From contig NZ_SJOU01000012.1 in NCBI RefSeq assembly GCF_012027725.1, positions 1 to 64,000 on the forward strand: a stretch of DNA of 64,000 bases, in the 5' to 3' direction. Shown one piece after another: positions 19,977 to 48,206 of this stretch; the stretch's first letter is position 1; every line of letters starts with the position of its first letter. Below the pieces are notes generated by a model, which worked only from the letters and a program-made list of their open reading frames with translations, was not told the origin of the DNA and did not search any database. A program made the translations under genes and the position numbers. The DNA comes from Olsenella sp. SW781 (GTDB taxonomy: Bacteria > Actinomycetota > Coriobacteriia > Coriobacteriales > Atopobiaceae).

Positions 19977-20068
19977 GCCCAAAATTAATCCGCCCTGTGG
20001 CGGCGTGCGGCGACATTTGCCCAGTTGGCATTTTCGCTACACCGCCACAGGGCGGATTAATTTTGGGC
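19977..20068. repeat. Stem-loop element with conserved TTTGCCCAGTTGGCA loop
   Basis: Perfect 27-base arms (19977-20003, 20042-20068; the arm contains AAAATTAATCCGCCCTGTGG) enclose a 38-base loop with ATTTGCCCAGTTGGCATTTT. Additional GGCGCC boxes flank the arms. The stems are unrelated to the elements at 46831 and 48128, but the loop core is the same. It lies between the convergent PAP2 and phosphoesterase genes. Confidence 0.88.
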
Positions 20069-46579: not shown

Positions 46580-46612
46580 TGCGGATGAAACGACGCGTTC
46601 CCGGGAGGGTGC

Positions 46613-46804
46613 ATGCAGGCGATTGGCGACTTCTTCACATGGCTCTTCAACGACAGGATGGGCGTCATCTGCCTCATCGGCGGTGGCATCGTGATCTGCC
46701 TCGTCATCGCCCTGCTCATGGAGCGCACCACCAAGAAGCGCTACTTCAACCACGAGAAGTCCGAGGGTGACTGGGACCTCTTCGACGACGAGGGTGACGA
46801 GTAG
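46613..46804 (+). CDS. Small single-pass membrane protein (63 aa)
   Basis: A 63-residue protein: a short amphipathic N-terminus (MQAIGDFFTWLFNDR), one membrane helix (GVICLIGGGIVICLVIALLM, about 17-36), a basic stretch (ERTTKKRY) and a strongly acidic tail ending FDDEGDE. The positive-inside rule puts the tail in the cytosol. The start is ATG 46613 with GGGAGGG upstream, so translation is well supported. Function unknown. It is followed within 27 bases by the first of two inverted hairpin elements and is divergent from serS. Confidence 0.75.
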   Translation: MQAIGDFFTWLFNDRMGVICLIGGGIVICLVIALLMERTTKKRYFNHEKSEGDWDLFDDEGDE

Positions 46805-46830
46805 CGGACTCTGCCCGCAGGTTCTTCTCG

Positions 46831-46909
46831 ATTAACGCGCACTCGTGCACGGCTCTTCTTACGTTTGCCCAGTTGGCATTTAAGAACCCGTGCACGAGTG
46901 CGCGTTAAT
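46831..46909. repeat. Stem-loop element, left copy flanking the nuclease-like gene
   Basis: The 22-base arms (46831-46852, 46888-46909; ATTAACGCGCACTCGTGCAC then GG) enclose a 35-base loop containing CGTTTGCCCAGTTGGCATTT. The loop core matches the element at 19977; the stem matches the element at 48128. GTTCTTCTCG immediately precedes the left arm. Confidence 0.92.
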
Positions 46910-46941
46910 TCCCTATCAGCCGCTCGTCGGGAGGAGGGGGC

Positions 46942-48132
46942 GTGCTTCTTACCGTCAATCGGATGTCCGCGCTGAGGGCGCTGCGGCGTGAGCGAAGCGA
47001 GAACGGTCGTCTGACCGGCGCCCGAACCGACCTCGCCGCGCCGGACCCCACCCCGCGGAAACGCTGGACCGCCGGCATCATACCGAAGGGCCCGCTCGCG
47101 ATTGACGCGCCGCCGAGCCGGGATCGCCCCCTTGACATCGTGGTCCCGCAGGCGCGCTTGCGACCGCGCGCCGCGTTCTTCCGGAGCTCCGTGCACGGGG
47201 GCGACATTCCGCCCGGCTCCTACGTCAGCTTGGGGGAGGAGGTCGCCTCCGTTGGCCCCGAGCTGCTGTTTCTCGAGCTTGCGGGAGTCATGCACCCCAT
47301 CGTCCACGCCCTCGTAGGCTACGAGCTCTGCGGCACCTACGCGCGCGACCCGCGCTCGCCGCGAACGGGCAGTGTGACGTTTGGCGTCGAGCCGGCCACG
47401 ACGAAGGCGAGAATCGCGGAGTTTCTCGACGGCTGCCCGGGCCTGCGCGGCGTTGACCAAGCCCGTCGCACCCTCGCGCATGTCGCCGACAACGCCTGGT
47501 CACCCACGGAGGCGCTTCTCGCGCTTCTCGTCCGCCTGCCCGTCACCGAGCTGGGCTTCGGCGCGGGGCCCGTGACCCTCAACGTCCGCCACGAGACGAC
47601 GGCCGAGCTGCTGCAACGTGGAGTGAGGGCGTCGCGCGTGCCTGACATAGAGGTGGACGGAACGCCCATGGGATTCAACTATGACGGGTACGGGCACTTT
47701 GACCTCGCCTCCATCGCTCGGGCCGAGTCTGCCGAGGAGCGCATGGGTGCCATGCGCAGCGTGCGCGAGAAATACCTCGACGACCTCAGGAGAAACCGGG
47801 AGCTCACCGCGCGCGGCAAGATAATCCTGCCCGTCATCGCCGACGACCTGTTTGCCGACGGCGGGCTTGACACCGTCATGCTCGAGGCTGCCTTGGCCTG
47901 CGAGGAGCTCTGCGGCCAATCGCTCGGGGACGTGCGCCTGGCGCTCGCGTCCCCGTTGCTCGCCCGGAAACGCCAGGAACTCATCTGGTCGCTCCTCCCG
48001 TGGGAGCCGGGGACGCGCTACGCCCGTGCCATGGCGGCGCGTCAGGAGGCGAGGGAGGGAACCCCCGAGGACGTCCTCCTCCTAGGGGACGAGTTCGTGA
48101 CGGTGGAGGAGGTTTCCCTTGCCGGAGATTAA
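46942..48132 (+). CDS. Putative PD-(D/E)XK-like nuclease family protein
   Basis: A 396-residue protein I recognise only loosely. It resembles a Coriobacterial family in which a variable N-terminal half (HGGDIPPGSYVSLGEEVA, ELLFLELAGVMHPIVHALVG, ELCGTYARDP) precedes a nuclease-like core. Here PDIEVDGTPMGFNYDGYGHF (about 234-253) is followed by a helix (RSVREKYLDDLRRNREL) and TARGKIILPVIADDLF. Vsr/DUF559-type nucleases have the order acidic-strand, EYD/NYDG, helix, hydrophobic strand, which fits. Activity is not proven and the usual Glu-x-Lys is unclear. The start is GTG 46942 after GGGAGGAGGGGG. Its TAA stop lies inside the right-hand hairpin element, so the gene is framed by two copies of the same repeat. 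Confidence 0.55.
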   Translation: MLLTVNRMSALRALRRERSENGRLTGARTDLAAPDPTPRKRWTAGIIPKGPLAIDAPPSRDRPLDIVVPQARLRPRAAFFRSSVHGGDIPPGSYVSLGEEVASVGPELLFLELAGVMHPIVHALVGYELCGTYARDPRSPRTGSVTFGVEPATTKARIAEFLDGCPGLRGVDQARRTLAHVADNAWSPTEALLALLVRLPVTELGFGAGPVTLNVRHETTAELLQRGVRASRVPDIEVDGTPMGFNYDGYGHFDLASIARAESAEERMGAMRSVREKYLDDLRRNRELTARGKIILPVIADDLFADGGLDTVMLEAALACEELCGQSLGDVRLALASPLLARKRQELIWSLLPWEPGTRYARAMAARQEAREGTPEDVLLLGDEFVTVEEVSLAGD

Positions 48133-48206
48133 CGCGCACTCGTGCACGAGTTCTAAAGTGCCAACTGGGCAAACGCGAGAAGAACCGTGCACGAGTGCGC
48201 GTTAAT
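48128..48206. repeat. Stem-loop element, right copy in opposite orientation
   Basis: The 21-base arms (48128-48148, 48186-48206) are identical to those at 46831. The 37-base loop is the reverse complement type: AAAGTGCCAACTGGGCAAACG followed by CGAGAAGAAC. The two elements therefore face each other across the nuclease-like gene, whose stop codon is provided by the left arm (ATTAAC). A GGGGACGGG remnant lies just beyond at about 48222. Confidence 0.92.

Follow-up and report, generated by a model that had tools for sequence, protein, structure and literature searches.

What is a nuclease-like gene doing between two facing copies of one hairpin? The question is raised by a 64,000-nucleotide stretch (hereafter the window; contig C4:1-64000) from the 2.43-Mb genome of an Olsenella gut bacterium. 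The answer that we consider probable is a gene-plus-repeat system of the REPIN/REPtron kind, with a Vsr/DUF559 nuclease in place of the HUH transposase. In REPINs and REPtrons, by definition, every repeat family has a single gene, copies of the repeat border that gene, hairpins are dispersed in intergenic DNA, and gene and repeat co-diverge (PMC3116915, PMC8266576).

The two facing elements are exactly as a first-pass annotation had described them, with perfect stems of 22 and 21 bp, reverse complementarity of 92% over 79 nt, and the stop codon of the gene inside the downstream copy (Table 1). Taken alone, either element is nearly palindromic but polar: 16 aligned copies from three species have both arms in common, with a conserved left half (arm plus TTCTTCTCGCGTTTnCCCAGTTGG) and a variable right inner part. 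Four occurrences of the 19-mer core are present in the window where 0.02 would be expected, and the single-strand fold of the element has an energy of -33.4 kcal/mol (z = -10.3 against shuffles). No known RNA family in Rfam matched at the window elements, and compensatory base changes gave no signal among copies, since the stem is conserved in sequence. The loops of the flanking pair are inverted at five loci of relatives and in the same orientation at two, so that opposite orientation is common, not universal.

Table 1. Features of the window unit and its surroundings, in window coordinates unless stated otherwise
Feature	Coordinates	Strand	Remarks
Small membrane-protein-like ORF (MQAIGDFFTWLFND...)	46612-46805		Adjoins serS
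Upstream hairpin element, 79 bp	46831..46909	+	79/79 identical in T. provencensis; 9 copies in own genome
Upstream element, left arm	46831-46852		
Upstream element, loop core CCCAGTTGG	46868-46876		
Upstream element, right arm	46888-46909		
Gene for 396-aa protein	46942..48132	+	GTG start; predicted Vsr/DUF559-like PD-(D/E)XK-type C-terminal domain
Stop codon of that gene, TAA	48130-48132		Inside downstream element
Downstream hairpin element, 79 bp, inverse orientation	48128..48206	-	79/79 identical in T. provencensis
Downstream element, loop core CCAACTGGG	48161-48169		
Solo hairpin of second family, 86 bp	19980..20065	+	Cognate paralogue at contig 69489-70571, just outside window

The AlphaFold (AF2) model of the window protein is confident (pLDDT 84.8, pTM 0.84), and its best Foldseek matches in the PDB are to E. 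coli Vsr (1vsr and 1cw0, probabilities 0.89 and 0.84, with weak E-values of 0.17-0.19). Aligned by hhalign, the family profile matches E. coli Vsr over the active-site block with an E-value of 2.4e-4, pairing PDI..(N/E)YD..H and D..R...L..G with Vsr; this match came from the broader profile A2 only, the narrower A1 giving none directly against Vsr. The PD-(D/E)XK-like core suspected in the first pass, for which a structure prediction had been proposed as the check, is thus supported as a predicted fold of the Vsr/DUF559 type. E190, D235, H252 and D281, which we take to be the counterparts of the Vsr active-site residues, are invariant across all paralogues. Position 246 is asparagine in the window clade (NYD) and glutamate (EYx) in most distant paralogues; with asparagine at this canonical acidic site before the DG..H motif, catalytic activity of the window copy itself is uncertain. 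Neither the window protein nor its profile gave a match above threshold in Pfam, NCBIfam, PADLOC or PDB sequences, and the protein has no Y1_Tnp match; one paralogue passes the Pfam cut-off for DUF559. The N-terminal and middle domain shows a few similarities to AbiEi-type proteins, among them a weak one to AbiEi_1 (one family member, E 0.1).

Homologues of the window protein were found in 49 of 60 relatives, often about ten per genome. A scan of genome contigs gave 55 loci, all from Coriobacteriia or unplaced actinobacteria; the comparison genomes are mostly metagenome-assembled or of unnamed lineages, and gene starts were set mechanically. By profile search the own genome has 11 family members, of which nine share only some 25% identity with the window protein, and most sampled Coriobacteriia genomes have 7-12. 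Nearly all family genes at the scanned loci adjoin long hairpins. Other genes of these loci provided control flanks: a hairpin score of at least 12 was reached upstream by 27 of 51 family flanks (53%) against 5 of 66 (7.6%; Fisher 5e-8), and downstream by 40 of 51 (78%) against 12 of 89 (13.5%; Fisher 1e-14). Upstream and downstream arms match in 19 of 26 loci by automated comparison, against 6% between loci (0 of 2000 permutations); the seven misses, inspected by eye, were register shifts, second-ranked hairpins and short shared arms. At protein identities of 90% or above the arms are nearly the same, and stem similarity is at background near 60%. This decay with protein identity indicates joint divergence of gene and stem, with all four arms at a locus changing in step.

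Within the own genome each of the 11 paralogues is flanked by a long hairpin on at least one side, with stems alike across one gene and unlike between paralogues (for example, CTTAGGTGAGC at C12:163897, CCCGACAAA at C11:19054 and GGGGTCGTGGCAG at C33:171851). Most of these hairpin families are dispersed: from 40 scored candidates they occupy at least 12, 9, 7, 5, 3, 3 and 2 places, with three families at one place, all counts being lower bounds. Copy numbers of elements in Coriobacteriia are low (1-12). The window itself holds a solo hairpin of a second family, directly after a stop codon and with the same loop core (TTTGCCCAGTTGGCATTT) as the window family. Of 71 elements, 34 have a loop core of the type C[AC][AC]C[TA]G[GC], which is present in 7% of shuffled loops.

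The window element has nine full copies in the own genome, two at the gene and seven solo at other loci, the latter lying between genes as judged by eye. Thermophilibacter provencensis (G022, NZ_LT671417.1) is the closest species among the compared genomes. Both gene-flanking elements are 100% identical between the two, against 92.8% for the gene and 83-94% for the flanks, which indicates that the elements are either strongly constrained or kept alike by copying. Some solo elements are shared between species and others are polymorphic. A solo site on contig C36 has the element in a further genome, G017, and none in T. provencensis; site C34:134305, with an own-type element, has an unrelated hairpin, AGTGTACT...CCGCAGGT, in both T. 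provencensis (L177 1234-1600) and G017 (L186); and some elements of G017 remain without a cognate gene. The first-pass annotation had held that repeats standing equally around other genes without mobility would speak against a mobile unit; solo copies do occur at unrelated loci, yet they vary in presence between species. The target duplication that it suggested looking for was not seen on inspection of the outer flanks of the nine own copies. On contig C33 (L056 3252-3875) an AbiEi-like gene stands between two solo elements of the window family in the same orientation, 2.8 kb apart; T. provencensis has one element only at the counterpart.

The window unit lies between serS with a small ORF and tRNA-Leu; the ORF accompanies serS in those genomes of the genus that were examined. 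Empty sites had been proposed as a test of mobility, and within the genus this site indeed occurs in three states: empty, with a solo element (G017; also G004, with another stem), and with the gene between two elements. In the protein tree the units at the serS site do not form a single clade: well-supported branches force five label changes, or fewer if locus L075 joins the group. The site has therefore been occupied more than once, or its genes have been replaced. Genomes G004 and G025 were considered as proof of a moving unit, with a breakpoint at the element, and were set aside because metagenome assembly was involved and a rearrangement or mis-join is possible.

The association extends beyond the class. 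In a sample of 149 Actinomycetota, full-length members were found in most Coriobacteriia, and matches to the DUF559-like part in about 30 other genomes. Outside Coriobacteriia, 15 of 20 DUF559-type genes have a hairpin scoring at least 11 on one side or both, against 4 of 76 control windows, and the same stem stands on both sides of the gene at loci L303, L297, L296 and L293, and also at L265, L274 and L280. The leading element family of each genome reaches 29 places in G192, 18 in G141, and 15 each in G119 and G067. On balance, and less firmly than for the window system, we lean towards a phylum-wide class in which an endonuclease of the Vsr fold, unrelated to HUH enzymes, spreads and maintains hairpins. 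Such a class would be a second origin of REP-like repeats, with enzyme and stem co-evolving in some ten lineages per genome.

Seven genomes with elements (G067, G119, G192, G141, G096, G131 and G005) lack any Y1/HUH gene, and the last of these is of the window's genus. The own genome has six Y1_Tnp genes, which is what might suggest that RAYT (HUH) transposases spread the hairpins as ordinary REPs, with the nuclease gene as a passenger. We regard this as the least credible of the readings, and RAYT mobilisation of the hairpins was rejected: the seven RAYT-free genomes count against it, every nuclease paralogue has its own stem, and the RAYT-like Y1 genes of the own genome (L239 and L243, on contigs C16 and C1) are flanked by other, shorter palindromes of the AAAGGGGACAGGCCCCTTT type, unlike the window-type elements. 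Two REP-type systems therefore coexist in this genome.

In the mechanism that we favour, each gene would encode a sequence-specific endonuclease of the Vsr/DUF559 (PD-(D/E)XK) kind that recognises the stem of its own hairpin family. Nicking would probably fall on the common loop core, CNNCTGSS, or close to it, and most likely on an element that is single-stranded or extruded; cutting with repair would copy the short element into new intergenic sites and keep the copies alike. The gene between two elements would sometimes be copied into a solo-element site, or lost from it. That the protein is an active nuclease, recognises the stem, cuts at that site and causes the dispersal is proposed from the comparative evidence above; no intermediate was found. 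Nicking of the cognate hairpin with repair copying would be the simplest account of the dispersal, of the uniformity of copies and of the three site states.

Those site states also fit the main rival, a homing-type selfish gene, to which we give a real if minor chance. Here the nuclease would cut solo elements, and repair from an element-gene-element template would insert the gene, so that solo elements would be both targets and scars of loss, and the gene, not the element, the selfish unit. The serS site, whether empty, solo (G017, or G004 with its different stem) or occupied, and the scattered descent of its units in the tree fit such a history, and if gaps were repaired by way of palindromic arms, a full element on each side of the gene would be the natural outcome. 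Several points weigh against it: each element family has one gene but many elements, as with RAYTs; near-identical units were not seen at more than one site of a genome, save in a duplicated stretch of G007; and the assembly of G004, from a metagenome, may contain a mis-join. Less likely again is a regulatory role, in which the AbiEi-like part would be a repressor and the hairpins operators or terminators of its own gene and of a small regulon. In its favour are the placing of the elements, one of which precedes the start codon by tens of bases while the other is at the stop codon, their full identity between species and the weak AbiEi_1 similarity; the strong conservation of the elements could equally reflect such a role. 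Elements of 65-140 bp dispersed to intergenic sites that vary between species do not fit it, however, and neither do stems wholly different between paralogues; an operator also needs no downstream copy at the stop codon.

The first-pass annotation had proposed a mobile or defence cassette bounded by inverted repeats. A nuclease-like gene framed by structured repeats and the existence of empty and solo sites have held up; a unit bounded by terminal inverted repeats has not. A composite transposon or defence cassette of this kind is very improbable, even with two facing elements and empty sites, given that target duplication and a transposase are absent, element orientation varies, and elements are frequent without the gene. 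A defence role found no support: PADLOC gave no match, and the neighbours of the unit are serS, a small ORF and tRNA-Leu. With a hairpin family for every gene, and most families also solo, the window system is closer to REPIN/RAYT systems than to a classical transposon.

The likeness to REPtrons and RAYTs lies in a companion gene that is single-copy per element family, bordered by its own palindromes and endowed with its own repeat family, and in hairpin doublets in extragenic DNA with dispersed copies (9 of the window element; 15-29 places in other genera). The enzyme differs, being Vsr/DUF559-like instead of HUH/Y1, and the elements are longer, fewer and built around a central CNNCTGSS core; in the element alignment the GTAG/CGTC tag of REPtrons is absent beside the palindrome, and the loop core is conserved instead. 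Since the enzyme is not HUH, the window system is not a member of the REPtrons, but it would work like one. With Vsr, DUF559 and REase_MTES_1575 of the PD-(D/E)XK clan it shares the C-terminal fold and the E-D-H-D active-site pattern, and departs from them in about 180 additional residues of N-terminal and middle domains, in the asparagine of the window clade and in the link to hairpin repeats. The middle region is in our judgement AbiEi-like in general look; unlike type IV toxin-antitoxin loci, the window gene has no AbiEii partner next to it and carries a nuclease domain instead. MITEs and IS200/IS605 ends are likewise short, structured, non-autonomous repeats, or hairpins flanking a gene; the elements described here are without TIR/TSD signature and without HUH transposase.

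To our knowledge, work on REP-type repeats has until now associated them with RAYTs. In complete genomes compared here, hairpin repeats number in the dozens, RAYTs are absent, and two of the copies enclose a different nuclease, in what looks like a second, unreported bacterial way to carry and spread short repeats; we found no open-access paper tying DUF559, Vsr-like proteins, Olsenella or Coriobacteriia to palindromic repeats of this sort. DUF559 is a very common family of unknown function. If the nuclease handles the hairpins, DUF559 would gain a testable role, with specificity readable from natural gene-stem pairs, and many orthogonal pairs of site-specific nuclease and hairpin would be offered for study.

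The elements may also be a cause of rearrangements with breakpoints at them. At L008 (own C1:101389) and L084 (G004), related genomes have the two flanks of an element separated by 20-40 kb or more, and breakpoints may therefore fall at elements. The 9-mer GGCGAGAAG occurs 27 times in the window against 1.5 expected, often as GGCGAGAAGRAC; its occurrences are partly coding (Gly-Glu-Lys) and also intergenic, and a close variant, TTCTTCTCGC, lies within hairpins.
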